Positions 270 through 12,021 of a stretch of 13,293 nt of DNA are shown piece by piece (positions within the stretch are counted from its first letter, which is position 1; the number at the start of each line of letters is the position of its first letter). The notes below the pieces were generated by a model. It ran no database searches, had not been told where the DNA came from, and saw nothing but the letters and a program-made list of their open reading frames with translations. A program made the position numbers and the translations under genes. Origin of the DNA: Actinomycetota bacterium (GTDB lineage Bacteria; Acidobacteriota; Blastocatellia; Chloracidobacteriales; Chloracidobacteriaceae); assembly GCA_013298335.1 (NCBI GenBank), contig JAAFHI010000020.1, positions 1 through 13,293 of the forward strand, in the 5' to 3' direction.

Positions 270-275
270 CTCCTT
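270..275 (-). promoter_or_regulatory. Shine-Dalgarno of the membrane protein at 264
   Basis: AAGGAG on the minus strand, 5 nt before the ATG at 264. It fixes the start of this edge-truncated gene. It lies just outside the heptad array, which begins at 278. Confidence 0.7.
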
Positions 276-277
276 GA

Positions 278-387
278 GTAGTCAGTAGTGAGTAGACAGC
301 AGTTAGTAGTGAGCGGTTAGCGGAAAGCAGTTAGTGGTAGAAAAAATGCTAATTGCTAACCACTGACCGCTAACTACTCGTCACTGC
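278..387. repeat. Heptad inverted-repeat array, GYRGTBA family (locus A)
   Basis: The left arm (278-340) reads as nine heptads in phase: gtagtca, gtagtga, gtagaca, gcagtta, gtagtga, gcggtta, gcggaaa, gcagtta, gtggtag. The right arm (350-387) reads taattgc, taaccac, tgaccgc, taactac, a 3-nt insert tcg, then tcactgc. These are reverse complements of the same heptad class. Aligned from the loop outward, five heptads pair with about 1-2 mismatches each (one with three). The loop is A-rich (341-349). The last right-arm heptad overlaps the 3' end of the anti-sigma gene, and its TCA is that gene's TGA stop on the minus strand. Confidence 0.85.
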
Positions 388-830
388 TTTTCCGCTTTTT
401 TCTTCATTTTCACCTGATTGCCGCGTTCGTTGTACTGGACGTCGTCCATCAGGTGGTAAATCAGCATGACGCCGCGTCCGCAGGGCCGCATCAGGTAGTG
501 CGGGTCGGTCGGGTCGGGCAGGTTCGCGAGATCGAACCCGTCGCCTTCATCGGTGATGATGAAGGTGACTTCCTCGTCACTCATGTCGGCGATGATATGG
601 ACGTTTTTGTCCGGGTCGCTCTTGTTGCCGTGCTTGATGGCGTTGGCGATTGCTTCGTCGAGGGCGACGAACAGATGCGAGTGCGGCTGCACCAATCCGC
701 GGGCTTCGAGGCGTTCGGTCAGTTCATTCAAAACGTCATGCATGCGCTCGATGACGCTTGGAATGGTGAACTCCAGCCGCTCGTGGGTGTGGGCGGGGGC
801 CACGGTTTCGTTGATGGTCTGGTCGCTCAT
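381..830 (-). CDS. RsbW-like anti-sigma factor / switch protein kinase (HATPase_c)
   Basis: A 149-residue single-domain GHKL ATPase. Proteins of this RsbW/SpoIIAB type bind a sigma factor and phosphorylate an anti-anti-sigma partner on Ser, in the cytoplasm. The N box is ALDEAIANAIKHGN at about residues 64-77, the G1 box is TDEGDGFD at about 107-114, and the G2/lid is CGRGVMLI at about 127-134. All key ATP-binding residues appear intact. The start is chosen at 830 (MSDQTINETV) because it leaves a family-typical short lead before the first strand. An in-frame ATG at 896 (MPSANVAP) would add 22 residues and shorten the gap to the deacetylase; neither start has a convincing Shine-Dalgarno. No RsbV-type antagonist or sigma factor is adjacent. 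The stop codon lies inside a heptad of the downstream repeat array. Confidence 0.85.
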   Translation of the reverse strand: MSDQTINETVAPAHTHERLEFTIPSVIERMHDVLNELTERLEARGLVQPHSHLFVALDEAIANAIKHGNKSDPDKNVHIIADMSDEEVTFIITDEGDGFDLANLPDPTDPHYLMRPCGRGVMLIYHLMDDVQYNERGNQVKMKKKAEKQ

Positions 831-928
831 CTTCAACGCGTACCGTCTTTCGAGGGGAAGTCGGGCCGAACGAGGCGCAACGTTAGCACTCGGCATAAAA
901 AAATTCACCCAATTCGACGGATTGGGGA

Positions 929-1915
929 TCAGATGCCCGTCAACCGGGAAGCCACGCGGACAAAACCCGGCGAATGCGGTTCGTTCGGGACCAGCAGTTG
1001 CTTCTTCCCCGCCCCGAGAATCCAATGGTGAAACCAGGAGATTCCGGCGGGTCCGTGGTATTCGTCGGGCGTGGCGTAGGCCGGGTCGTTCAACGCGGCT
1101 TCGAGCGGGATGGTCCGGTAATTCCGGTGGCGCAGCATCTTCGCCACGTCGTCAAAGGTATCGGCGTTCAACTGGTTCGAGTGCAGGAGCAGAATCTGGC
1201 TGATTTCGCGACCGAACAGGACGACTGACTGGCGCTCGTAGTAATCGAACACGGTGGCAAGGTATGGCACGTAGGCATCCCGAATCCGCCGTTGCAGTTT
1301 CACGTCGCCATCCAGAAGGGCCAGTTCGTAGGCCCGCGCGAAGATCCAGTCCTCGTCGTCAATCGTGACCGGCGCGATGCGGTAGCCGCGTTCGGCCAGA
1401 AACGCCTCGATGGCCTTTTTCTTTTCGGCGTTTCCGCCGGTGTGCAGAAACGGATGCCGGAAGAACCGCAGCTTCCAGGGTGTCGTTCCAAGCAACCGGC
1501 GGGTAATCGCTTCTCCCTCGGTCACTTCCCACTTGATGTCTTCAAGCGAAAGCACATTGAAGTCACGGTGCGTCCGGGTGTGATTGCCGAGTTCGAGTCC
1601 GGCGGCGGTCCAAAGGCGAAGAATCTCGATGCGGGACGGTTCGAGCGTCTCGCCGTCGTAGCATTGTCCTTCGTTGACGAACCCGATGGCCGGTACGCCC
1701 TGGCGTTTGACCGACGCCACCAGTTTTTCGTTGAACGCCCGCTTGGCCGCGAAATCTCGGATGGAACTGCCCGGCAGATCGTCGAACGTCACCGCGACGG
1801 TCCGGACCGGCTTGCGGGCGGCGGCAACCGGAACGCCGAAACAGCACCCGAAAAAAACGAGAAGAACGCACCCGAGGGATGCGTTCTTCATGAAAAACCT
1901 GCGTGAGAGAATCAT
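929..1915 (-). CDS. Secreted polysaccharide deacetylase (NodB homology domain)
   Basis: A 328-residue carbohydrate esterase 4 type protein, expected to remove N-acetyl groups from peptidoglycan or another envelope or extracellular polysaccharide outside the cytoplasm. Visible NodB motifs: TFDDLPG at 43-49 (catalytic base and metal Asp), NHTRTH at 111-116 (the two metal-binding His), RFFRHPFLH at 150-158, and ILLLHSNQ at 241-248. These correspond to motifs 1, 2, 3 and 5 of the family, so the metal-dependent active site looks complete. The N-terminus is a signal peptide with a hydrophobic core at about 14-31. An internal ATG at 1891 (MKNASLGCVLL) would give a more compact signal peptide and is a real alternative start. 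It starts 14 nt after the ABC ATPase stop, so the two are probably co-transcribed. Substrate unknown. Confidence 0.88.
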   Translation of the reverse strand: MILSRRFFMKNASLGCVLLVFFGCCFGVPVAAARKPVRTVAVTFDDLPGSSIRDFAAKRAFNEKLVASVKRQGVPAIGFVNEGQCYDGETLEPSRIEILRLWTAAGLELGNHTRTHRDFNVLSLEDIKWEVTEGEAITRRLLGTTPWKLRFFRHPFLHTGGNAEKKKAIEAFLAERGYRIAPVTIDDEDWIFARAYELALLDGDVKLQRRIRDAYVPYLATVFDYYERQSVVLFGREISQILLLHSNQLNADTFDDVAKMLRHRNYRTIPLEAALNDPAYATPDEYHGPAGISWFHHWILGAGKKQLLVPNEPHSPGFVRVASRLTGI

Positions 1916-1929
1916 TCAGTCGGGCCTCA

Positions 1930-2676
1930 TCAGCGATTGCGGGTGTCGGTGGCGATGCGTCCGTCGCGAATGGTCAGGACCCGGTGGGCGTGGGAGGCGA
2001 TATCCGGCTCGTGGGTGACGAGGATGATCGTGTTTCCGCGCTTATGAAGGACGTCGAACAGCGCCATGATTTCCTGGCTGGTGGTCGAGTCGAGGTTTCC
2101 GGTCGGTTCGTCGGCCAGGATGATCGAGGGATTGTTGACGAGCGCCCGGGCGATGGCGACGCGCTGACGCTGACCGCCGGAGAGTTCGTTCGGCTTGTGG
2201 CCCATCCGGTGCGCCAGATCGACCTGTTCGAGCGCCGCCTTGGCCCGCTTGACCCGTTCACCGCTCGACGTTCCGTTGTAGATCAGCGGAAGTTCGACGT
2301 TGTGGAGCGCGCTGGCGCGGGGCAGCAGGTTGAAGGTCTGGAAGACGAACCCGATTTCCTTGTTGCGGATATGGGCGAGTTCGTCATCGTCCATCTTCGA
2401 TACCAGCTTGCCGTTCAGCCAGTATTCGCCCTGCGTCGGGGTGTCGAGGCAACCGATCAGGTTCATCAGGGTGGATTTCCCCGAACCCGACGGGCCGACG
2501 ATGGCAATGTATTCGTTCCGGAGAATCGAAAAGCTCACCCCATGAAGGGCGTGGATGGTTTCGTCGCCCATCTTGTAGGTCTTCCAGATGTCCTTGGTCT
2601 CGATGATCGTGGAAGCGGCGGGCGCGATCGGCGAGGCGACGGGGGCAAGGGCGCTGGCGGTGGCGGGCATGGTCAT
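1930..2676 (-). CDS. ABC transporter ATP-binding protein, MacB/LolD type
   Basis: A 248-residue nucleotide-binding subunit that would power a partner permease at the inner membrane. Walker [10 protein letters not shown] is at 61-69, Q-loop FQTFNLLP at 112-119, signature LSGGQRQR at 165-172, Walker B IILADE at 185-190, followed by PTGNLD, and the switch His in THE at 221-223. The text [14 protein letters not shown] and PTGNLDS is typical of the MacB/LolD/FtsE subgroup. It carries an Ala/Pro-rich N-terminal extension of about 22 residues. The ATG at 2676 is chosen because a GGAG sits 6 nt upstream; a TTG at 2688 overlaps that site. The matching adaptor gene lies upstream on the same strand, but no FtsX/MacB permease follows: the next gene is a deacetylase. 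Confidence 0.93.
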
Positions 2677-2682
2677 CGGGTT

Positions 2683-2686
2683 CTCC
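2683..2686 (-). promoter_or_regulatory. Shine-Dalgarno that decides the ABC ATPase start
   Basis: GGAG on the minus strand, 6 nt before the ATG at 2676. The in-frame TTG at 2688 directly precedes and partly overlaps this site, so it is unlikely to be the start. Confidence 0.6.
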
Positions 2687-2720
2687 AAGGGGTTTGCGGC
2701 CTACGACTTTCGTTCAGGAT

Positions 2721-2763
2721 GGCGTTTCGCGAGTCGATTCGAGAACCGAATGCGGGAAACGCC
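2721..2763. other. Imperfect stem-loop in the leader of the ABC ATPase gene
   Basis: GGCGTTTC (2721-2728) is matched by GAAACGCC (2756-2763), with an inner ATTCG/CGAAT pair. It lies between the heptad array and the ABC ATPase start. It could be a 5' leader hairpin or chance. No T-tract follows it, so it is not an obvious terminator. Confidence 0.3.
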
Positions 2764-2808
2764 TCCCATGGTTGGTACACGCGCGGGGAAAAGCAAGGGC
2801 CGGAGGGA

Positions 2809-2947
2809 GCAGTTAGCGATTAGCAGTTAGTAGTTAGTGGGCGGTACATCCGATTGATGGGTTAAAGTTCATTCATCTGACCACCTGCCTCAAACCAATA
2901 ACCACTAACTACTAACTACTAACTACTAACTACTAGCCACTATTGCC
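2809..2947. repeat. Heptad inverted-repeat array, GYRGTBA family (locus B)
   Basis: The left arm (2809-2843) reads gcagtta, gcgatta, gcagtta, gtagtta, gtgggcg. The right arm (2899-2947) reads taaccac, four identical taactac units, tagccac, tattgcc, the reverse complements of the same class. About 55 nt of non-repeat sequence separates the arms. It fills the gap between the adaptor gene (stop at 2950) and the ABC ATPase gene on the same strand, so a transcript covering both genes would contain it. The run of four perfect units suggests recent tandem expansion. Confidence 0.85.
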
Positions 2948-2949
2948 GG

Positions 2950-4419
2950 CTACTTCTTCTCGCCGCCGCCATCCTTGCCTTCCTTGGTGATGGCGGTCCC
3001 GGACTTGAGCGTCCGGAGGCGGGTAAACGGCCCGGTGATGATTTTCTGTCCTTCCGACAGTCCGGTCACGATTTCGATATCGGTGTCGCCGGTGATGCCC
3101 GTCTTGACCGGAACGAATTCGGCTTTCCCGCTCTTTTCGATGAACACGCCCTGGATGTCTTCGCGCTTGGCCTTTTTGTCCTTGTCGCCACCGGCCACCG
3201 GTTGCGGCGCGGGCGTCGAGCCGGGCTTTCCGCCAGCCAGATCATTCGCGTCGCGGCTGACCAGGGCCGAAAGCGGCACCACGACCACGCTGCGGCGGGT
3301 ATCGGTCGTGATGACGGCGGTCGCCGACATCCCCGGACGCAACCGGATGCGATCCTTGTCGTTCGGCTTGAGACGAACCTTGACCTTGAAATCCTTGGCT
3401 TCCTGCGACGTATTGTTCGCCGCGATGGTCTGCCCGGAGCGGGTCACCGCGCTCTGGCCGACTTCGGCGACTTCACCGTCGATTTCGGCTTCACCGAGCG
3501 CATCCACCTTGACCTTGGCGGGCTGGCCGACCTTGACGTTGGCGATGTCGGTTTCGTCAACCTTGACCTCGACGTTGACCTGCGACATGTCGGCGATGGT
3601 CATCAGCGGGGTGCTGCTCAGGTTGGCAATGGCGAATTCACCGACCCGCACCGGGAGGCTCGACACGACGCCGTCAATCGGGGCTTTCCGAACGGTCCGG
3701 TTCAGAAAATCGGACGCACTGGCGAAATTGGCCTTGGCGGAATTGGCGCGCTGCCACGAAGCCTTGACCGCGGTTTCGGCCCGGTTGACGCCGATTTCGC
3801 CTTCCTTGATGATCTGCTTGATGCGCTCGACCTGGGCAATCTGCGATTCGTAGCTCGCCTTAGCCGTGTCGTAGTTGGCCCTGGCCGTGTCGTAATCTGC
3901 CCGCGAGGAAACGCCACCTTCGACCAGTTCGGTCGTCCGCTTGAGCTGGGCTTCCTGAAGCGACAGTTGCGCCCTGAACCGCGCCAGATCGGCTTCCGCC
4001 GAGATCAGTTGTGACTTGTTCTGGGTCACCAAATTCCGGGCCGTCAGAACCTGTGTTTCATTCGAACGCGCATCCTGTTCGGCAGCCCGAAACTGCGCTT
4101 CCGAACTCTGCTGCGAGGTGATCTGCTGGGTCGGGTCAACCTTGACCAGCGGTTGTCCAGTTCGAACCAGGTCGCCTTCCTTGACATAGATATCGGTGAC
4201 CCGACCGGCGACTTCAGCCGTCAGGTTGTACAACTCGACCGGACGGACTTCGCCCGACGCGGAGACTTTGGATTCCAGGAGTTCGCGTTTCTTCACGTCC
4301 TGGATTTCCACGCTGACGGCCGCGGTCGAGCGGGTCATCAGACTGGCGGCGACGATGGCGATGAGAACCAGGGATACGCCACCGACGATCAAGAATTTTT
4401 TCGTCCGACTGAGTGCCAT
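2950..4419 (-). CDS. Periplasmic adaptor subunit of an efflux system (MacA/HlyD/RND-MFP type)
   Basis: A 489-residue membrane-fusion protein. Such proteins sit in the periplasm, anchored in the inner membrane, and couple an inner-membrane pump to an outer-membrane channel. Seen in order: one N-terminal transmembrane helix (about 9-28); first half of a lipoyl-like domain (AEVAGRVTDIYVKEGDLV at 68-85); a long alpha-hairpin coiled coil rich in Ala, Gln and Glu (about 97-240); the second lipoyl half (APIDGVVSSLPVRVGE at 246-261); a beta-barrel (about 280-375); and a C-terminal membrane-proximal domain. A Gly/Pro/Lys low-complexity insert at about 396-420 separates two strands of the last domain. 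The ATG at 4419 has GAGG 9 nt upstream. The ABC ATPase downstream suggests a MacAB-like pump, with the permease missing here. Confidence 0.9.
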   Translation of the reverse strand: MALSRTKKFLIVGGVSLVLIAIVAASLMTRSTAAVSVEIQDVKKRELLESKVSASGEVRPVELYNLTAEVAGRVTDIYVKEGDLVRTGQPLVKVDPTQQITSQQSSEAQFRAAEQDARSNETQVLTARNLVTQNKSQLISAEADLARFRAQLSLQEAQLKRTTELVEGGVSSRADYDTARANYDTAKASYESQIAQVERIKQIIKEGEIGVNRAETAVKASWQRANSAKANFASASDFLNRTVRKAPIDGVVSSLPVRVGEFAIANLSSTPLMTIADMSQVNVEVKVDETDIANVKVGQPAKVKVDALGEAEIDGEVAEVGQSAVTRSGQTIAANNTSQEAKDFKVKVRLKPNDKDRIRLRPGMSATAVITTDTRRSVVVVPLSALVSRDANDLAGGKPGSTPAPQPVAGGDKDKKAKREDIQGVFIEKSGKAEFVPVKTGITGDTDIEIVTGLSEGQKIITGPFTRLRTLKSGTAITKEGKDGGGEKK

Positions 4420-4549
4420 TTCGGAGTGCCTCGCAAGAAAATCAGATGATTTGAGATTACAACGTTCGATTGTGCCGGATGCGATTCAACTACGTCACCC
4501 TTTGCGGACAGGTTTCAAGAATTTCATGGAACAGGGATCGGGAGGGAAA

Positions 4550-4700
4550 AGGTATCGGGTTTCGGGTTTCGGGTTTCAGGTAAAACCGGTTCTGAGTTTT
4601 CAGTGATGATTTTTGAATTCATGGCTGCAATCCTCAAAACCGAAAATGCATCACTCAAAACTTGTACTACCTGAAACCCGATACCCGACACCCGACACCT
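4550..4700. repeat. Heptad inverted-repeat array, GGGTNTC family (locus C)
   Basis: The left arm has aggtatc, three gggtttc units and aggtaaa (4550-4584). The right arm has gaaaccc, gataccc, gacaccc, gacacct (4673-4700), the reverse complements. Pairing continues past the heptads: agttttcagtgatg (about 4595-4608) matches the reverse complement of the segment starting at 4649 (catcactcaaaact), with one mismatch. The structure is therefore an inverted repeat about 150 bp long with a 40-nt loop. It lies between divergent promoters, so it cannot be simply a terminator for two converging genes. Confidence 0.85.
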
Positions 4701-4715
4701 TTCAGCCATAACCCC

Positions 4716-4744
4716 TTGTCTTTACTGAACTTCTGGGCTATCGT
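4716..4744 (+). promoter_or_regulatory. Candidate sigma-70 promoter for the TatT-like gene
   Basis: TTGTCT (-35, 4716-4721), a 17-nt spacer, then TATCGT (-10, 4739-4744). Each box matches consensus at 4 of 6 positions. It lies just right of the heptad array and about 90 nt before the chosen start. Prediction only. Confidence 0.35.
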
Positions 4745-4825
4745 CCGCTGTAGGCAGTCGCCTCGACCGCTTTTCCCATCACCAGAAATCAAATTCATGT
4801 CCCGCCCGTCCGCGGCGGCGTGCGT

Positions 4826-4831
4826 GAGGTG
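4826..4831 (+). promoter_or_regulatory. Shine-Dalgarno that decides the TatT-like start
   Basis: GAGGTG, 4 nt before the ATG at 4836. The upstream in-frame ATG at 4797 has no Shine-Dalgarno and adds a stretch (MSRPSAAACVRCP) that looks neither like a signal peptide nor like the repeat fold. Confidence 0.6.
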
Positions 4832-4835
4832 TCCG

Positions 4836-5516
4836 ATGAAACACAAGGCCGTGTTTACCAAGGTTCGCGCCCTCATCAACGAACGCGAGCTGGCCAACGA
4901 CAATCTCGACAAGGCCGAAGACGCCATTGGCACGCTGCTCGAAAAGGACAGCAAGTGCGACTGGGCCTACGGTCTGTTGTCGGAACTCTACTACTGGCGC
5001 GGCGAGATTGCCCCGGCGAAGGAAAAGCTGGGGATGTATCAGCAGGGCGTCGAGTATGGCGAGGAAGCCGTCGCGCTCAACGAGCAATCGCTTGAAGGCA
5101 ATTTCTGGCTCGGCGTCAATTACGGCTGCTTCGGGCAGGAAAAGGGGATTTTGAAAAGCCTTTCCCTCATCAAGCCGATCCAGCAATGCGCCGAGCGGGT
5201 GCTCGATATCGACGATTCCTACTTCTACGGCGGCCCGTGGCGCGTTCTCGGACGCATCTACAACAAGGTTCCCGGCTGGCCGGTTTCCATTGGCGACAAC
5301 CGCAAGGCGCTCGAATGCTTCGAGGCGGCACTCGAATTCGGCCCGAAATTTTACCTGAATCACCTCTACGTTTCGGAGTGCTACCAGTCGCTCAACGACA
5401 AGAAAAAGGCGAAGGAACACCTCCAGTGGGTCATCGACGCCCCGCTTTCAAAAAACCACGAACGCGAAGACGCCGCCTACAAGAAAGAAGCCAAGGCGAT
5501 GTTGAAGAAGCTGTAG
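4836..5516 (+). CDS. TatT-like (TRAP-associated T component) helical-repeat protein
   Basis: A 226-residue all-helical protein with TPR-like helices. It resembles the TRAP transporter T-component (TatT) family, known from the Treponema TP0956 protein that partners a TRAP solute-binding protein. Diagnostic text: YGEEAVALNEQSLEGNFWLG at about 74-93, VNYGCFGQEKGILKSL at about 94-109, GGPWRVLGRIYNKVPGWP at 132-149 and GDNRKALECFEAALEFGP at 153-170. The end, EDAAYKKEAKAMLKKL, also fits. No signal peptide or lipobox is visible, so this copy is predicted cytoplasmic, unlike the lipoprotein prototype. No TRAP permease or solute-binding gene is beside it. The family name comes from sequence memory and the role here is unknown. 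The next gene, a secreted peptidase, starts about 100 nt downstream beyond a G-rich repeat. Confidence 0.78.
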   Translation: MKHKAVFTKVRALINERELANDNLDKAEDAIGTLLEKDSKCDWAYGLLSELYYWRGEIAPAKEKLGMYQQGVEYGEEAVALNEQSLEGNFWLGVNYGCFGQEKGILKSLSLIKPIQQCAERVLDIDDSYFYGGPWRVLGRIYNKVPGWPVSIGDNRKALECFEAALEFGPKFYLNHLYVSECYQSLNDKKKAKEHLQWVIDAPLSKNHEREDAAYKKEAKAMLKKL

Positions 5517-5524
5517 TGCATTTT

Positions 5525-5559
5525 GGGTTTGGGGTTTTGGGTTTTGGGTTTTGGGTTTT
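5525..5559 (+). repeat. GGGTTTT heptad array with perfect G-quadruplex motif (locus D)
   Basis: One gggtttg and four gggtttt units in tandem, followed by gg. There are five runs of at least three G separated by loops of 3-4 nt, which satisfies the standard G3+N1-7 quadruplex pattern on the sense strand. It begins 9 nt after the TatT-like stop. Unlike the other loci it has no facing arm. The sequence resembles eukaryotic telomere repeats only by convergence. Confidence 0.85.
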
Positions 5560-5565
5560 GGAAGC

Positions 5566-5594
5566 TTGAATTGAATCCGTGTAATCCGTGTAAT
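5566..5594 (+). promoter_or_regulatory. Candidate promoter of the S9 peptidase, built from the 9-mer repeat
   Basis: TTGAAT (-35, 5566-5571), 17-nt spacer, TGTAAT (-10, 5589-5594, 5 of 6 matches to consensus). The -10 box is formed by the junction of two aatccgtgt units. A start site near 5601 would leave a leader of about 20 nt containing the AAAGG Shine-Dalgarno of the gene at 5620. Prediction only. Confidence 0.4.
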
Positions 5595-5600
5595 CCGTGG
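5574..5600 (+). repeat. Three tandem 9-mers (aatccgtgK)
   Basis: aatccgtgt, aatccgtgt, aatccgtgg in tandem directly upstream of the peptidase gene. The unit length of nine, not seven, sets it apart from the neighbouring heptad arrays. Confidence 0.85.
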
Positions 5601-5619
5601 CTCATCAAAAGGTTTCAAC

Positions 5620-7797
5620 ATGAAAAAAAACACCGGTCTGACGCTCCTGCTCGGCCTCGGGCTATGCTTTCTGCCCATCTCCGCGCCTGCCCAATCGAAG
5701 AAAGTCCTCGATAAATCAACCTTTTACGACATGGAGTCAGTGACCGGTCCGGCGATTTCGCCCGACGGGAAACAGGTCGTGTTCACCCGTACCTTTACCG
5801 ACAAGCTGAAGGACCAGTACCGCAGTTCGCTCTGGATCGCCGCCACTGACGGCACACGCACCCGCGAACTGACCGGCGACACCTACAGCGCGCGCAACCC
5901 GGTCTGGTCACCCGACGGCACGCGCATCGCCTTCATCGCCGACCGCGACGGCACGAACCAGCTTCACGTCCTTTATATAGACAAGGGAGAAATCGCGCAG
6001 TTGACCCATCTCGAGCGCGAACCCGCCGATCTGCACTGGTCGCCCGACGGAAAGCGGATTTTGTTCTCAACGCTCGTTCCGGATACCGATTCCGCCCTCC
6101 CGATCAAGCTCCCGGAACTGCCCAAAGGCGCGCAGCCGGCCAAAACCGCGACCGTGATTGACCGGATGTCGTGGGCGGCGGACGGCCAAGGCCCGGTCAT
6201 CAAGGCCAAACGGCAGGTTTTTCTGGTGGATGCCGTCCTCGGCGGTACGGCGCAACGGCTGACCGACGGAAAATACAGCTACGACAATCCAGAATGGTCG
6301 CCCGACGGCACGAAAGTCTACGTTTCCTGCATTCCGAAGGACGACCCGGAATTCGAGCGAGGAAATTCCGAGATTTTCGTGGTTATGGTCGCAACGGGCG
6401 GAATGGCCCCGCTCACCGACCGCGTCGGCCCGGACACCAACCCGACCCCCTCACCCGATGGTAAACGCATTGCCTACACTGGTTACGACTACAAAAAGTT
6501 CACCTTCCACCTGTCGAGCATCTACCTGATGGACGTGGATGGGACAAATAAAAAACTTTGGGTTGGAAATCTTCCGAGCTCCCCGTCAAACCTCCTCTGG
6601 GCGAAGGACGGCTCCGGCGTTTACTACACGATGGAGGAACGCGGTTCGTCGAACATCTGGTTTGCCCCGCTCACTGGCGCGCCAACGAATTTGACCGAGT
6701 TTCTTTCCGGAAATCGAGATTCCGGAGTTGTTCAGATCATCACGATGGTCCCCGGAGTCATCCCTTCCGGCAAAGGCAAAAAGAACCCGCCGACCCCGAA
6801 AACGGCACAACCGGAATCGAAACCTGCCCCATCAACACCAGCGGTCAGAGAAGAACCCAGCCGGAAAACGTTGACGGGATTCGATGTTTCGAATTCCGGG
6901 CAAGCGGTCGCCGTCTGGTCCACCTTCAAGGAACCTGGAAAGCTCGTCACCTTTTCAGTCAAGGACGCGAGAGTTTTTACCGAACTGGTTGACGTCAACG
7001 CCGACGTTCTTACCGGAATGACGCTCGGTGACGCCGAGGAACTCAACTTCACCGCGCCGGACGGCGGCAAGGCCCAGGGCTGGCTCATCAAACCGGCGAA
7101 CTACGAACCGGGTAAAAAGTACCCGCTGGTGCTGTGGATTCACGGCGGTCCGTGGTCAATGTACAACGTCGGGTTCAACTGGGCCTTCCAGAACTTCTCG
7201 GCGGAAGGCTACGCCGTTTTGTATACAAACCCTCGCGGCTCAACCGGTTACGGGCAGGATTTCGTCAACGGAATTCAGTATTCGTATCCCGGCAAGGACT
7301 ACGACGACCTGATGGCGGGCGTGGACGCGGCCATCTCGAAAGGCTTCATCGACGAGAAAAACCTGTTCGTGTGCGGCGGTTCGGGCGGCGGCGTGCTGAC
7401 CGCGTGGATCGTCGGCCACACCGACCGGTTCGCGGGCGCCGTTTCGATGCGGCCCGTCATCGACTGGCATTCCTTCGTCGGCACGACCGACGGCCCGGTC
7501 ACCTGGTACGACCAGTTCCGCAAATACCCGTGGGAAGACCCGCAGGAATTCGCCGCCCGGTCGCCGCTCACCTACGTTGCAAACATCAGGACGCCGACGA
7601 TGGTCATGACCGGCGAAGCCGACCTGCGGACGCCGATCAGCCAGACCGAAGAGTTCTACCGTGCCCTCAAGATGTTGAAAAAAGAGACGTTAATGGTCCG
7701 GATGCCGGATGAATTCCACGGCTGGCGGCGTCCGACGCACCAGCTCGCCCAGCAGTTGTATTTGCAGGCGTGGTTTGAGCGGCACAAGCGGAAGTAG
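5620..7797 (+). CDS. Secreted S9 family peptidase (prolyl oligopeptidase / acylaminoacyl-peptidase type)
   Basis: A 725-residue serine peptidase expected to cut short peptides in the periplasm or outside. A signal peptide (MKKNTGLTLLLGLGLCFLP, cleavage after about Ala24-Gln25) is followed by a beta-propeller with SPDG blade motifs at 47, 97, 141, 227 and 278. A Pro/Lys-rich disordered insert (about 385-417) interrupts the late propeller. The alpha/beta-hydrolase domain has the HGGP loop at 508-511, NPRGSTGYG, the nucleophile Ser588 in GGSGGG, Asp668 in GEADLRTP and His700 in DEFHGW, so the triad is complete. Length is normal for S9B/S9C enzymes. AAAGG lies 7 nt before the ATG. Exact specificity cannot be read from the sequence. 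Heptad arrays lie on both sides of the gene. Confidence 0.93.
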   Translation: MKKNTGLTLLLGLGLCFLPISAPAQSKKVLDKSTFYDMESVTGPAISPDGKQVVFTRTFTDKLKDQYRSSLWIAATDGTRTRELTGDTYSARNPVWSPDGTRIAFIADRDGTNQLHVLYIDKGEIAQLTHLEREPADLHWSPDGKRILFSTLVPDTDSALPIKLPELPKGAQPAKTATVIDRMSWAADGQGPVIKAKRQVFLVDAVLGGTAQRLTDGKYSYDNPEWSPDGTKVYVSCIPKDDPEFERGNSEIFVVMVATGGMAPLTDRVGPDTNPTPSPDGKRIAYTGYDYKKFTFHLSSIYLMDVDGTNKKLWVGNLPSSPSNLLWAKDGSGVYYTMEERGSSNIWFAPLTGAPTNLTEFLSGNRDSGVVQIITMVPGVIPSGKGKKNPPTPKTAQPESKPAPSTPAVREEPSRKTLTGFDVSNSGQAVAVWSTFKEPGKLVTFSVKDARVFTELVDVNADVLTGMTLGDAEELNFTAPDGGKAQGWLIKPANYEPGKKYPLVLWIHGGPWSMYNVGFNWAFQNFSAEGYAVLYTNPRGSTGYGQDFVNGIQYSYPGKDYDDLMAGVDAAISKGFIDEKNLFVCGGSGGGVLTAWIVGHTDRFAGAVSMRPVIDWHSFVGTTDGPVTWYDQFRKYPWEDPQEFAARSPLTYVANIRTPTMVMTGEADLRTPISQTEEFYRALKMLKKETLMVRMPDEFHGWRRPTHQLAQQLYLQAWFERHKRK

Positions 7798-7804
7798 GGA
7801 TCGG

Positions 7805-7947
7805 AAAAGGTGTCGGGTATCGGGTGTCGGGTTCAAACAATTTCGCTGTGCTCACAATGAACTTTGAAATTGTTCCGACTGAATACGGCGATTCTACAAC
7901 TGATTTGAAACATGAAACCCGACACCCGATACCCGACAGCTTTTTTT
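7805..7947 (+). terminator. Candidate terminator-like structure after the S9 peptidase
   Basis: The arm 1-arm 2 stem of the repeat array ends directly at a run of seven T (7941-7947). The large loop (about 77 nt, containing its own 9-bp hairpin) is unusual for an intrinsic terminator. Pairing of arm 1 with arm 3 instead would disrupt this stem. Termination is inferred. Confidence 0.3.
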
Positions 7948-7984
7948 GAACCTGACACCCGACACCTGAAACCCGACACCTTTT
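7805..7984. repeat. Three-armed heptad array, GGGTNTC family (locus E)
   Basis: Arm 1 (7805-7835, forward): aggtgtc, gggtatc, gggtgtc, gggttca. Arm 2 (7913-7944, reverse): gaaaccc, gacaccc, gataccc, gacagct. Arm 3 (7947-7984, reverse): gacaccc, gacacct, gaaaccc, gacacct. Arm 1 pairs with arm 2 over about 28 nt with one mismatch and one bulge. It can alternatively pair with arm 3 if one heptad is looped out. The interval also holds a small inner hairpin: aacaatttc from 7837 matches gaaattgtt from 7867. It fills the whole gap between the S9 peptidase and the transglutaminase-fold gene. Confidence 0.85.
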
Positions 7985-7988
7985 CCAC

Positions 7989-9206
7989 ATGTCACTCGGC
8001 CTTTCCAACTCCACACCGCAGGAAGATCCGCCGAGCAATCGGTCGGAAATCAAATGGCTGCTCGGAATTACGGGCGTGGCCTTCGTCGTGCTGCTCGGGC
8101 TGTTTCTGATGAAGCAGATCGGGTGGATTCAGTGGATTCCGTTCGCCATCGCCAAGAAGGCATACCAGAATTCGCAGGCCGAAAAGCAGCAGTACAAGCC
8201 GGACGCGCTCCGGTCCTACATCATTTCGTACCTCGCGCAGCCCCGGTTTGCCGGACGCGATTTCGAAAAACAGATTCTCGGCGACCTCCACCTCGAACTG
8301 TATTTCATTGATACGGAAGATGTTATCCTCTCGATTTCGAAAGCCGACAACACGCCCGAACGCCTTCAGGCGGCCAAGGAAAAGGTCATGCTCGACCCGA
8401 CGATGATTGAGGTCGCGCGCGAGGAATACGGGTATCTGAAAGTCGGGCGGTTCGGGGTCCTTCGCGACGAAAAAACCGATGTCGCCTTCCGGACCAACAT
8501 CAAGAACATCCGGATTGACCCGAACCAGTCGCTGACGTTCAAGTTCGAGCGCGGCACCTACAGCATGACGCTCGTGGAACTGGCGGATTTCGTTCTGAAC
8601 AAAAGCATTTACGGGGGGAAACTGCGGGCCGACACCGGTGAGCGGATGGCCGGCTCGCCGCTGATTTTCTACAACCACGGCGCGTACGTCGGGAAAGCGG
8701 GCGAACCGTCGCTGAAACGGCTGGTCGAGAATCTGACCGCCGACCTGTCGCCTTCCGACCCGCAGTTCCGGGAGAAGCGAATACAGCGGCTGCTCGATTT
8801 CGTTTCGAACGAGATTGCCTACGATAAAACCGAGGCACTGGCCCCGTTCGAGACCCTGAAGCGCCCGAACGAAACGCTGATGAGCCGCCGGTCGGATTGC
8901 AGCAACAAGACGATCCTGCTCTGTTCCCTGCTCGAACAGACCGGCGATCCCTATCTGATGCTCTATTGCCCACACCACATCACGGTGGCGGTTCAAAAGG
9001 GGAACTTCACCGACGCGAACGGCCTGAGCCTGAAGTGGTTCAACAAGGACTGGGTCATCACCGAGTCGACCCTGGCCGGATTCAAGGTGGGCGAGACGCG
9101 CGTGCGGGAGGAAGAAATTCTGAAGCAGGTGCGGTTCGTTCAGCAGCCCGACGTCAAAAACATCATCTTCAACGCCAAAAGCGGGCAGACGCTGGAATTT
9201 CAGTAG
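7989..9206 (+). CDS. Membrane-anchored transglutaminase-like (cysteine-dependent) protein
   Basis: A 405-residue protein with a short cytoplasmic N-terminus and one transmembrane helix (WLLGITGVAFVVLLGLFLM, 23-41), placing most of it outside the inner membrane. The middle (about 60-265) is a domain I do not recognise. The C-terminal part (about 270-385) has transglutaminase-fold motifs: SDCSNKTILLCSLLEQTG with the candidate nucleophile Cys304, HHITVAV with His329/His330, and DWVITEST where Glu359 occupies the usual third-residue (Asp) position. Proteins of this fold act as peptidases, amidases or crosslinking enzymes; which applies here is unknown. The ATG at 7989 is needed to keep the membrane helix but has no Shine-Dalgarno, because heptad repeats run to within 7 nt of it. 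It converges on the kinase operon, with a hairpin between. Confidence 0.72.
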   Translation: MSLGLSNSTPQEDPPSNRSEIKWLLGITGVAFVVLLGLFLMKQIGWIQWIPFAIAKKAYQNSQAEKQQYKPDALRSYIISYLAQPRFAGRDFEKQILGDLHLELYFIDTEDVILSISKADNTPERLQAAKEKVMLDPTMIEVAREEYGYLKVGRFGVLRDEKTDVAFRTNIKNIRIDPNQSLTFKFERGTYSMTLVELADFVLNKSIYGGKLRADTGERMAGSPLIFYNHGAYVGKAGEPSLKRLVENLTADLSPSDPQFREKRIQRLLDFVSNEIAYDKTEALAPFETLKRPNETLMSRRSDCSNKTILLCSLLEQTGDPYLMLYCPHHITVAVQKGNFTDANGLSLKWFNKDWVITESTLAGFKVGETRVREEEILKQVRFVQQPDVKNIIFNAKSGQTLEFQ

Positions 9207-9210
9207 GAAA

Positions 9211-9284
9211 CAGCAGTCAGTCGCCAGTGGTCAGTGGTCAGTGAAAAGCTGGCGACTGACCACTGGCGGCTGCCTGCTGTTCGC
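9211..9284. repeat. Heptad hairpin between convergent genes, GYRGTBA family (locus F)
   Basis: Left arm heptads: gcagtca, gtcgcca, gtggtca, gtggtca, gtgaaaa (9213-9247). Right arm: tggcgac, tgaccac, tggcggc, tgcctgc, tgttcgc (9250-9284). The arms pair over about 30 bp with roughly four mismatches around a loop of about 9 nt, the tightest hairpin in the window. It begins 4 nt after the transglutaminase-fold stop and ends 2 nt before the kinase stop. This position suits a bidirectional terminator or transcript-end protector, but no T-run follows on either strand. Confidence 0.85.
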
Positions 9285-9286
9285 TT

Positions 9287-10288
9287 CTATTTCCCGCCGA
9301 AGAGTCGCTTGAGAAAGCCGAAAAAGCCGCCCGAAGCCTTTTCAGGCGCCGGCTGGGGTTCAATCGGCTGGGTGGCGCGTTCGGAAAATTCCTTGGCCCG
9401 GAGTTTGGCGGTGTCGGGCTTGCGGGCATCCTTGACGGCCTGAAGGAAGTCGTTGGCGGTCGCGTAGCGGCTTTCCGGATTCGACGCCAGCCCCTTGGCG
9501 AAAACCTCGTCGAGCGCGGGCGGCAGGTCGGCGACGTGGGTCGTCACGGAAGCCGTCCCTTTCATCTTCTGTTCCAGCAGCTTGCGAAGGTCTTCCTGAT
9601 CCGCCGGCAGGGCCCCGGTCAACATTTCGTAGGTCATGACGGCCAGACTGTAGAGGTCCGCCTGCGGCGTCAGCGTCAGTCCCATCAGGTGTTCCGGGGC
9701 CATGTAGAGCGGCGTTCCGAAAACCTGTCCGACGGCGGTCAACTGGGACTGATGTTCATCCGGCTGAAGGAGCTTCACGATGCCGAAATCGAGCAGTTTG
9801 ACCACTTCCCGACCGTTGAGCTTGCCGATGAGGATGTTGGCGGGCTTGAGATCGCGGTGAAGCAGGTTGTTTTTATGCGCCGTCGTGAGGGCGTCACACA
9901 GGGCCTCGACGATGACGATGGTCTCTTCCAGCGAAAGTCGTCCGTTTTTGGTGAGTTTGCCGGCCAGCGTCTCGCCGTCGATAAACTCCATCACCATGAA
10001 CAGGATGCCCTCGTCGGTCTTCCCGAAATCCTGGACGCGGACGATGTTCGGGTGCATGAGATTGCCCCCGACGCGGGCTTCACGCTGGAAACGCTTGACC
10101 AGCGACATGTCGGAAGCCAGTTCGGGCGCCAGTACCTTGACGGCCACGCTGTTGCCCAGCGCAAGGTGGGTGGCCTGAAATACGGCCCCCATCCCGCCCG
10201 AACCGATCATGCGTTCGATCCGGTAGTTTCCGTTGAGCGTTTCGCCGATAAGCTTTTTGTAATACTCCGAAGCCGATGCTCCAGACAT
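9287..10288 (-). CDS. Soluble Ser/Thr protein kinase with C-terminal amphipathic tail
   Basis: A 333-residue Hanks-type kinase that phosphorylates Ser/Thr on unknown targets. The glycine loop GSGGMGAV is at 29-36, catalytic Lys51 in VAVKVL, C-helix Glu70 or nearby, HRDLKPAN at 144-151, DFG at 167-169 and APE at 197-199; all are intact, so it should be active. The kinase domain ends near 285, followed by a charged, Pro-rich linker. The extreme C-terminus, GGFFGFLKRLFGGK (320-333), is a short cationic amphipathic segment that could dock to the membrane. No transmembrane helix. The ATG at 10288 is set by a GGAGG 9 nt upstream. A much longer open frame upstream overlaps the other kinase and is rejected. 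It lies 2 nt after the upstream kinase stop, so the two are almost certainly translated from one mRNA. Confidence 0.92.
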   Translation of the reverse strand: MSGASASEYYKKLIGETLNGNYRIERMIGSGGMGAVFQATHLALGNSVAVKVLAPELASDMSLVKRFQREARVGGNLMHPNIVRVQDFGKTDEGILFMVMEFIDGETLAGKLTKNGRLSLEETIVIVEALCDALTTAHKNNLLHRDLKPANILIGKLNGREVVKLLDFGIVKLLQPDEHQSQLTAVGQVFGTPLYMAPEHLMGLTLTPQADLYSLAVMTYEMLTGALPADQEDLRKLLEQKMKGTASVTTHVADLPPALDEVFAKGLASNPESRYATANDFLQAVKDARKPDTAKLRAKEFSERATQPIEPQPAPEKASGGFFGFLKRLFGGK

Positions 10289-10290
10289 GT

Positions 10291-12021
10291 TTACTGTCCT
10301 CCGCCGCCGGCTTCCTGAACAATGCGGAAACCGAGCAACTCGTAGGTAAAATCGGGTTTTTGCGGAAATCGGAACGTCTTCTCTTCTTCGGGATGATCCT
10401 CGGGACGTCCCCGGAAGATTCTGACCGTCGAGTCCGATTCGACCTTTGAGGCCCCCGGATACCCCGCCTGACTGTCCCGCGTCCATTCGAGAAAACCTTT
10501 GAGAATGTCCTGAATGCCACGTCGGTCGGTGTTCCGGGCCAGATATTCCCATTCCCTTTCGCTGACCAGCCGATAGCTCTTGCCGGTTTCCTTGCCGAGC
10601 CACTGGCAGTAGGCGTTGGCATCGTTCCAGCTCACGCCCGTGACCGGTTTTTCGGCCTCTTTCGGGGACGGTTCGGGGCCGTTCCACACCGCCGGCGGCT
10701 TGTAACTCGTCCGCTTGACGAATTCGTAGTACTGCCGGTTGGTCACCAGCGTCGCGGAAACCTGGAAGGGGGAAACCTTTTCGGGATGTTCCGGACGGGA
10801 AAGCTTGTCGCCCCGATCGCTGCCGATGGTCACCGTCCCGCCGGGAAAGGCGATGAAACTGGGCATCGCCGCCGCCGGAATGGCATTGCTGGCGGTCGCC
10901 GGCTTTCCGAGCCCGAGCGCGGCGTTGATCTGGGGATAGAAAAACCATCCGCCGCCGATGGCCGCCAGCAACACCGGAACGGCGACCCATTTCAACGGAC
11001 TGCCGCCGCTCTTCGGCGCGGACGTCTGGTCCACGAGAATCGCCTGCGTCAGCGCGCGATGCGACATCGTGACCGGCTCGAAACCCGGCGTGGTGGGCAG
11101 GGCGGCCTGGCCTTTCCCGGGGGTCAGACGGTCCCGCAAAACGGCCTCGGCGGCCACGCTCTGTTCGAGGGCGTCGAATTCGCGCCGCAACGCGATGGCG
11201 GTCTGCTGCCGGTCCTCGGGAAGTTTGGCGAGCCCCTTGCGGATGATGGTGTCAAGCTGGACGGGAATGTCCGGGCGAATCGAGTCGAGCGGTTTCGGGT
11301 CGGCGAGCAGGACGGTCGGCAGTTTCTTGGTCAGTAACTCGTACACCATCAGGCAGATGGCGAAAACGTCGGCGCGAATATCGACCGGGTGGCCGAAGAT
11401 CTGCTCGGGGGCCATGTATTTTGGCGTCCCCGGCGAGCCGAGTCCCGGCCCGTCGGTCGTGAGCGCTTCGGTCCCTTCGGTTCCGTCCGGCGCCAGTTTG
11501 GCGATGCCGAAATCCAGGACCCGCGCCATCACGTCACCGTCGGCCAGAAACTGGAGCATGACGTTTTCGGGTTTCAGGTCCCGGTGAACGACCCCCTGCG
11601 CGTGGGCAGCGTGAAGGCCGGCGCAAATCTGCTTGGCGACATCGATGGCGAAATCCACCGTGACCTCGCCCTGGGCCATCGCGTACTTCCGGAGGGTCGT
11701 CCCCTCGATGAATTCCATCACGATGTAGGGCAACTGTTCTTCGCTGACGACGCCGAAGTCGGTCACCATCACGATGTTCGGGTGACTGATGCGCGCCAGC
11801 ACCTCGGCCTCGCGCCTGAAGCGGGCGAGCCGGTTGGCGCGGTCGGCTTCATCCTTGGCCTGGTCGAACAGCATGACCTTCAGGGCGAAGGTTTTCTTGA
11901 GCTGGACATGGGTGACGCGAAAAACCATCCCCATGCCGCCCTGCCCGAGAAGATCGTCAATCCGGTATTTCCCGTCGAGGACCGAGCCGATCTCCAGTTG
12001 ATTTTCGAGGTTCGAATTCAT
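10291..12021 (-). CDS. Transmembrane Ser/Thr kinase fused to an extracytoplasmic FGE-sulfatase-like (SUMF1) domain
   Basis: 576 residues. The cytoplasmic kinase domain has glycine loop GQGGMGMV at 26-33, Lys48 in FALKVM, HRDLKPEN at 146-153, DFG at 170-172 and APE at 204-206, so it looks active. A juxtamembrane linker follows, then one transmembrane helix (WVAVPVLLAAIGGGWFF, 345-361). Outside is a domain (about 390-568) with FGE-sulfatase hallmarks: FPGGTVTIGSDRGD, PVTGVSWNDANAYCQWLG, YRLVSEREWEYLAR and LGFRIV. The catalytic cysteines and RGGSW strand of formylglycine-generating enzymes are not seen (RGRPED instead), so a sensing or binding role is more likely than catalysis. Kinase-FGE fusions are known, for example chlamydial Pkn1. 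The ATG at 12021 is preferred; an in-frame GTG at 12096 would add 25 residues of no recognisable character. First gene of a two-kinase operon. Confidence 0.9.
   Translation of the reverse strand: MNSNLENQLEIGSVLDGKYRIDDLLGQGGMGMVFRVTHVQLKKTFALKVMLFDQAKDEADRANRLARFRREAEVLARISHPNIVMVTDFGVVSEEQLPYIVMEFIEGTTLRKYAMAQGEVTVDFAIDVAKQICAGLHAAHAQGVVHRDLKPENVMLQFLADGDVMARVLDFGIAKLAPDGTEGTEALTTDGPGLGSPGTPKYMAPEQIFGHPVDIRADVFAICLMVYELLTKKLPTVLLADPKPLDSIRPDIPVQLDTIIRKGLAKLPEDRQQTAIALRREFDALEQSVAAEAVLRDRLTPGKGQAALPTTPGFEPVTMSHRALTQAILVDQTSAPKSGGSPLKWVAVPVLLAAIGGGWFFYPQINAALGLGKPATASNAIPAAAMPSFIAFPGGTVTIGSDRGDKLSRPEHPEKVSPFQVSATLVTNRQYYEFVKRTSYKPPAVWNGPEPSPKEAEKPVTGVSWNDANAYCQWLGKETGKSYRLVSEREWEYLARNTDRRGIQDILKGFLEWTRDSQAGYPGASKVESDSTVRIFRGRPEDHPEEEKTFRFPQKPDFTYELLGFRIVQEAGGGGQ
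10298..10302 (-). promoter_or_regulatory. Shine-Dalgarno of the soluble kinase, inside the upstream kinase gene
   Basis: GGAGG on the minus strand, 9 nt before the ATG at 10288. It falls in the C-terminal Gly-rich codons of the upstream kinase (AGGGGQ), so the last codons of one gene serve as the ribosome site of the next. Confidence 0.65.

Follow-up and report, generated by a model that had tools for sequence, protein, structure and literature searches.

The cyanobacterial STRR sequences are degenerate heptanucleotide repeats, and heptamer arrays are also present in bacteria of unrelated phyla. In two xanthomonads, GGGAATC arrays number 186 and 183 per genome, are mostly intergenic and form 70 and 75 convergent inverted pairs, and their length varies between species (Rehm et al. 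2015, PMC4692102, where a Calothrix STRR case is also mentioned; statements on this and the other cited papers follow those of their passages that were available). We describe here a group of arrays that are likewise 7-nt, G-rich, mostly intergenic and arranged as convergent pairs. They are found in six intergenic gaps of a 13.3-kb stretch of DNA (contig 278, JAAFHI010000020.1, 13,293 nucleotides, hereafter the window), throughout the 5.11-Mb, 1093-contig Acidobacteriota genome to which it belongs (G000), and in related genomes, which are denoted G001-G009, G014 and G033, with L numbers for individual loci. The Xanthomonas arrays differ in that there is one heptamer family in each genome and 90% of the arrays lie between the same genes in the two species; 11% and 7% are intragenic, and they have been interpreted as quadruplex-forming (PMC4692102). 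Among the present heptamers, GGGTNTC could form quadruplexes, judging from its sequence only, and tracts of three G residues are absent from GTNAGTR and GCGAGTG.

There are precedents for the hairpin arrangement as well. The P6b stem of the Nostoc tRNA-Leu intron is a base-paired hairpin of degenerate heptanucleotide repeats with variable copy number (PMC3488679), although these occupy one intron position whereas the present arrays occur at many sites and in several families. Together with the Xanthomonas pairs (PMC4692102), this shows that a preliminary description of the window was wrong to believe that inverted heptamer pairs are undescribed. The TAACTGA direct repeats (MacGregor 2015, PMC4679880) are likewise scattered heptamers, largely intergenic, in unrelated phyla, with indels mainly in 7-nt increments in Cyanothece; unlike the present arrays, they lie mostly just upstream of start codons and are interpreted as serving translational regulation. 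Geobacter metallireducens carries, both between and within genes, 49 elements made of four heptanucleotides. Its class-3 sites have five heptanucleotides, and the classes occur mostly in pairs; these are interpreted as regulatory, and the available passages are silent on polarity (PMC2700814). Rickettsia palindromic elements (RPEs) resemble some of the present elements in being palindromic DNA in frame within unrelated genes, but they form ~150-bp families with conserved peptides and are not described in the available passages as heptamer arrays (PMC10969869). Each of three traits, then, has been described before in other bacteria: heptamer arrays, convergent pairs and palindromic insertions in frame. 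What is new, as far as our searches show, is the combination of several families in one genome, a measured polarity that includes pairs with unlike arms, the layered pairs, and the filled and empty sites, conserved genes included. No account of heptamer arrays in Acidobacteriota or of the polarity rule was found in open-licence full texts, the coverage of which is incomplete and is not proof of absence.

The reading that we favour, with about even confidence, is that these are dispersed, G-skewed 7-nt arrays that arise and spread when DNA is synthesized at sites that are broken or stalled, and that they are not a transcript signal. Heptamer repeats in unrelated bacteria are usually read as regulatory or as quadruplexes. 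The present evidence points to one DNA-level process, because there are filled and empty sites, in-frame insertions in genes and a near-absolute polarity. Such a process would also account for low-complexity protein inserts in these genomes, for example in DNA ligase.

The layout is convergent, as in the Xanthomonas pairs, and facing arrays nearly always have the G-rich strand in first place. Within 200 nt there are 33 G-first pairs and one C-first pair after removal of duplicates (47 and one with duplicates kept), and within 100 nt there are 27 and none, again without duplicates. The single C-first exception spans two neighbouring in-gene elements at L273. Same-direction neighbours number 36 with duplicates and 24 without. 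These counts from several genomes pool an unselected sample of G000 with loci fetched for matching heptamer patterns, and G004 and G005 are not independent; in the unselected sample alone, all eight facing neighbours are G-first, as are six of six at a stricter threshold. The rule is independent of arm pairing, because three pairs (L276, L160 and, at a contig end, L129) have poorly complementary arms, scoring 0.09, 0.09 and 0.16. An initial list of eight unlike-arm pairs was cut to these three, as the arms of L159 are related and each of L135, L019, L275 and L277 shows either layering or an outer arm that matches. The layering of L135 and L019 can be seen by eye: an outer heptamer family brackets an inner one in mirrored order. 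Thus, the paired-arm architecture that the preliminary description took to be maintained is shared as a layout, but the conserved trait is polarity more than pairing.

All six gaps previously said to carry 7-nt arrays do so, five of them with inverted pairs (E1-E6, described below), and Tandem Repeats Finder calls period 7 in every one. At a lag-7 score of at least 10 there are eight arrays, located in five of the six gaps, whereas 1000 dinucleotide shuffles of the same gaps give 0.003 arrays on average, never more than one, and no G-first pairs. Such arrays are found throughout G000. A search for three units of GGGTNTC with at most two mismatches yields 186 + 159 (345) matches in this genome, overlaps counted, and none for the reversed control. 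The unselected sample consists of every 22nd contig (50 contigs), from which 15 masked ones were dropped to leave 35 contigs and 198,652 bases. It holds 25 lag-7 arrays, 16 outside and nine inside open reading frames (ORFs), the script calls of which are simple and may misplace starts; ten block shuffles of the sample produce none. Lags of 4-6, 8, 10-13 and 15 give zero or one array each, and the harmonic lag 14 gives 18. Of the other short periods in the sampled contigs, lag 9 alone has several arrays (seven). Overall, 28 of the 32 array clusters in G000 lie outside ORFs. With exact 7-nt tandem units that are dispersed and mainly intergenic, the arrays have the hallmarks of heptanucleotide short tandem repeats. 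The sample, ten picked contigs and the window together provide 22 commonest heptamer words, some of which are point variants of one another and which fall by our own grouping into about eight families. This supports the earlier proposal that several families have a unit length of 7 nt and an inverted layout in common, and that one repeat has not simply been copied around.

Across the class, matches to GGGTNTC occur in 47 of 118 genomes and matches to GTNAGTR in 99 of 118, although the reversed control of the latter often matches too and its tally does not reflect this family alone. A stricter pattern of three GTCAGTR units matches 37 of 297 genomes across the phylum. GTNAGTR matches are most numerous in G003. 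Within a single genus, there are 68 GTNAGTR matches in G004 and 43 in G005, and none in G002 or G006-G009. Similarly, de novo searches find no lag-7 arrays in 400 kb of G002 versus 14 in G004 and seven in G005.

The sister genomes G004 and G005, whose aligned blocks have a mean identity of 94.6%, provide comparisons of filled and empty sites for 14 array clusters across 400-kb stretches. At G005:C2:238491-238546 there is an array of ~57 bp for which the target in G004 is uninterrupted. This insertion is a single array without a partner, and ~33 bp of the target, single in G004, are directly duplicated around it. Two G004 copies of tnpB carry inverted pairs of 188 and 138 bp that replace ~84 bp near the 3' end of the gene. 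Other copies are uninterrupted, including one with OrfB_IS605 and TNB domains, and a further copy of the tnpB inverted pair together with its flanks is located on the other replicon (L260). At L263, a 74-bp array in G004 is matched in G005 by ~20 bp of degenerate heptamers, and an imperfect direct duplication of ~21 bp flanks both. With the exception of L263, copy number shifts between these close relatives in 7-nt steps, as expected of heptanucleotide repeats: the orthologous arrays L262 and L267 differ by 21 nt and L259 and L266 by 7 nt, in addition to variable positions. G002 was tried as an outgroup for the L272 array, and its gap sequence did not decide the prior state. A separate event is seen at L232 (G005:C2 ~280.9-282.2 kb), where a ~1.3-kb segment of G005 with ends that look insertion-sequence-like by eye splits the C-rich arm of an element also present in G004.

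Elements are also inserted in frame within unrelated genes, as RPEs are. In the ligA gene of G000, an inverted pair is read through in frame, and the corresponding loop of G001 carries a different heptamer family at the same place. The loops of G003, G033 and G014 have a Q[AP]SLF segment with no array detected, and those of G002 and G004 are short. The Q[AP]SLF segment is conserved in the ligA loop of five genomes (L147, L302-L305) and presumably resembles a sliding-clamp binding motif. The heptamers of L302, the G001 loop, include AGGGTTT, which is also the unit of the plant telomere repeat, probably by coincidence.

Further inserts are in P0001 of G005, a type IIG-like enzyme with Eco57I and MmeI_Mtase domains. 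Comparison with a shorter G002 homologue, made from match coordinates and not from letters, reveals ten collinear segments and eight insert places that coincide with heptamer arrays. Seven of these are gaps with 40-202 residues in G005 versus 0-16 in G002, and ~33 extra residues fall within the segment at the eighth place; the largest gap, of 202 residues, is heptamer-coded in part only. An SDR gene of G000 carries another in-gene element. The ribonucleotide reductase intein of G005 has an in-frame heptamer element in its homing-endonuclease part (L271), and the G004 counterpart is alike (L200 ~16.8 kb; G004:C2 ~56.8 kb). The in-gene elements vary in heptamer family, length and spacer, and do not form a conserved ~150-bp family with a common peptide of the RPE type, though no search against RPE sequences was made. 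The inserts of P0001 relative to G002, along with the filled and empty sites of G004 and G005, lend support to the suggestion in the preliminary description that the arrays are a mobile, non-autonomous family.

What pairs, layers and replacements have in common is that the 3' side of a G-rich strand is toward the lesion or centre. One possibility is that arrays are initiated by the addition of G-rich heptamers to a 3' end at a site of repair, these heptamers being either copied from another array or generated by slippage on a short seed. If both 3' ends of a lesion were extended, or if one end were to fold back and copy itself, the product would be a G-first inverted pair. Later slippage would then alter copy number, and inserts in genes would persist only where the frame remains open. 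Slippage and template switching by ordinary polymerases would be the simplest agents. Ku-dependent joining and a reverse transcriptase of the RVT_1 family are unsupported as makers of the arrays because both were undetected in G000, G004 and G005; G003 has RVT_1 but no detected Ku.

Several observations weigh against this repair-synthesis reading. What causes the polarity is a matter of inference, and neither Ku nor RVT_1 is detected in G000, G004 and G005. Many GGGTNTC elements of G000 share sequence adjacent to their arms, as copies of a defined element would. In the ligA genes of G000 and G001 the arms are separated by the native Q[AP]SLF sequence, which would be hard to obtain by one insertion at one break. 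A clean empty site is found for only one of the 14 clusters compared and two others are in the tnpB copies, the rest having missing, repeated or partial flanks. Changes in length are not always multiples of 7, as shown by the ~53 nt at L263 and the 188- and 138-bp inserts in tnpB. A general target duplication is unsupported, since scores of at least 15 occur in three of 97 clusters versus 18 of 1702 controls; one of these three strong duplications is itself heptameric and the other two are those of ~33 and ~21 bp.

An unlikely alternative is a non-autonomous element similar to an RPE or a miniature inverted-repeat transposable element (MITE), wherein a transposase encoded elsewhere would mobilize entire inverted-repeat units and the heptamers would be terminal repeats. 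Terminal repeats would naturally give a fixed polarity, and the empty sites, the target duplications at G005:C2:238491-238546 and L263, and the RPE-like in-frame insertions fit such an element. Moreover, the GGGTNTC copies share, by eye, an outer AAAAGGT-like and an inner CAGGT-like sequence, and nine of 20 pairs in G000, all GGGTNTC-armed, have a spacer match with another pair, which is partly due to further heptamers inside the spacers. However, no spacer match is present in eight other G000 pairs, which are of other or mixed families with spacers of at least 25 nt, the spacers of the remaining three being too short to compare. Such an element also does not readily explain several heptamer families within one genome, the partnerless single array inserted in G005, pairs with unlike arms, or the native sequence between the arms in ligA. 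The target duplications are neither general nor of the fixed length characteristic of MITEs.

A telomere-like process, here in bacteria that have no telomeres, seems rather improbable to us. It would require that an activity other than RVT_1 adds G-rich heptamers to 3' ends at breaks and that the ends are then joined without Ku. If this is what happens, the arrays would be interstitial scars with the polarity of telomere-telomere fusions (G-rich then C-rich), in several families per genome, and the convergent Xanthomonas pairs would be products of the same process.

It is also quite unlikely that the elements are hairpins maintained by selection as structured RNAs, transcript ends, or binding sites for nucleoid or RNA-binding proteins. 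In favour of this, five of the window elements fold strongly, most arrays lie outside ORFs, and convergent gaps of G004 and G005 hold eight of 25 clusters versus 55 of 364 gaps, in loci that are partly picked and not independent. Furthermore, arms match their own partners better than swapped ones in G000 (0.69 vs 0.33), G003 (0.57 vs 0.36) and G001 (0.50 vs 0.40), but this largely reflects differences between families. In only two of 20 G000 pairs does the best match of an arm come from its own partner. In G004 (0.57 vs 0.66) and G005 (0.59 vs 0.61) own arms are no closer than swapped arms, and arm-to-arm copying is rejected as the sole source of pairs for the same reason.

The gene context provides little support for a transcript-level role either. 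The 20 classifiable clusters of G000 (eight at contig edges and four inside ORFs were set aside) are located in 14 co-directional, three divergent and three convergent gaps, versus 115, 33 and 25 for all gaps of at least 60 nt, and the 11 clusters of G003 are distributed 10, one and none. Element E3 of the window lies between divergent genes, and other elements lie within ligA, the SDR gene, the intein and the type IIG-like enzyme. Arrays are absent from related genomes such as G002. There are no Rfam matches at the gathering threshold in the window, which argues against a known structured RNA. Terminator-like sites are at the level of chance (19 found versus 17.2 expected), with one weak site in E6. 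The elements also do not match intrinsic terminators, for which short loops, T-tracts and a preference for convergent gaps would be expected: the arms are 40-160 nt apart in 16 of the 20 G000 pairs, and orientation in G000 is neutral. These results lead us to reject the transcript-end role that the preliminary description had listed as a candidate. Because orientation is neutral in G000 and G003, the window has no Rfam match and the own-arm match is mostly a family effect, we consider a mutational origin at the level of DNA more likely than a selected hairpin.

A model of simple replication slippage, in which arrays grow from chance heptamer seeds in DNA under no constraint and neither mobility nor a special polarity process is involved, is very unlikely as a full explanation, for although the 7- and 21-nt length steps between G004 and G005 and the seed-like degenerate heptamers of G005 opposite the G004 array at L263 are consistent with it, and polymerase slippage is cited as a hypothesis for heptamers by Rehm et al. 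(PMC4692102), slippage would not alone give whole-array insertion into a clean target, in-gene insertions, the 33:1 polarity or the mirrored layers.

Within the window, the six elements are distributed among genes for an HATPase_c_2 protein, a polysaccharide deacetylase, an ABC ATPase, an HlyD-type protein and a TPR-type protein, with genes for an S9 peptidase, a DUF553 transglutaminase-like protein and two serine/threonine kinases also nearby. Only E4 is assigned to a strand, and the fold z-scores given here are from RNA folding of the + strand with 100 shuffles. E1 (275..380) is the weakest of the six. It consists of degenerate GTNAGTR-type heptamers at 277-314 and a facing arm at ~347-380 (z -6.2), and is located between a gene on the - strand (1-264) and the HATPase_c_2 gene, also on the - strand (381-830). 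Its heptamers score below 10 at lag 7 and its arms are visible in the fold only; they are not among the computed inverted repeats of the window, a list that has E2, E3, E5 and E6. E2 (2808..2942) lies between the ABC ATPase and HlyD-type genes, both on the - strand, and is an inverted pair with arms at 2808-2840 and 2902-2934 (33 nt at 85%; z -4.2).

E3 (4548..4702), the element flanked by divergent genes, is a GGGTNTC inverted pair with arms at 4548-4597 and 4653-4702 (50 nt at 84%; z -9.0); there is a TTTTGAG-like sequence within the left arm and CTCAAAA within the right. E4 (5521..5561, + strand), as called by Tandem Repeats Finder, is a single GGGTTTT array with no partner arm (z -1.4). 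A 9-nt array, AATCCGTGT x2.9, follows it at 5574-5599. E5 (7805..7986) lies between the co-directional genes for the S9 peptidase and the DUF553-type protein, and is a GGGTNTC inverted pair with arms at 7805-7833 and 7916-7944 (29 nt at 97%; z -9.1), with a second C-rich array within 7950-7986 and a further inverted repeat at 93%. E6 (9202..9288) is a GTCAGTG-type inverted pair with arms at 9202-9241 and 9249-9288 (40 nt at 83%; z -11.4) that fills the gap between convergent genes and extends into both stop codons.

Two other features of the window are separate from the arrays. A terminator-like hairpin of 13 pairs is found on the - strand at 1861-1889, in the start region of the polysaccharide deacetylase ORF, the true start of which may differ. 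In addition, a fusion of protein kinase and FGE-sulfatase domains is encoded at 10291-12018.

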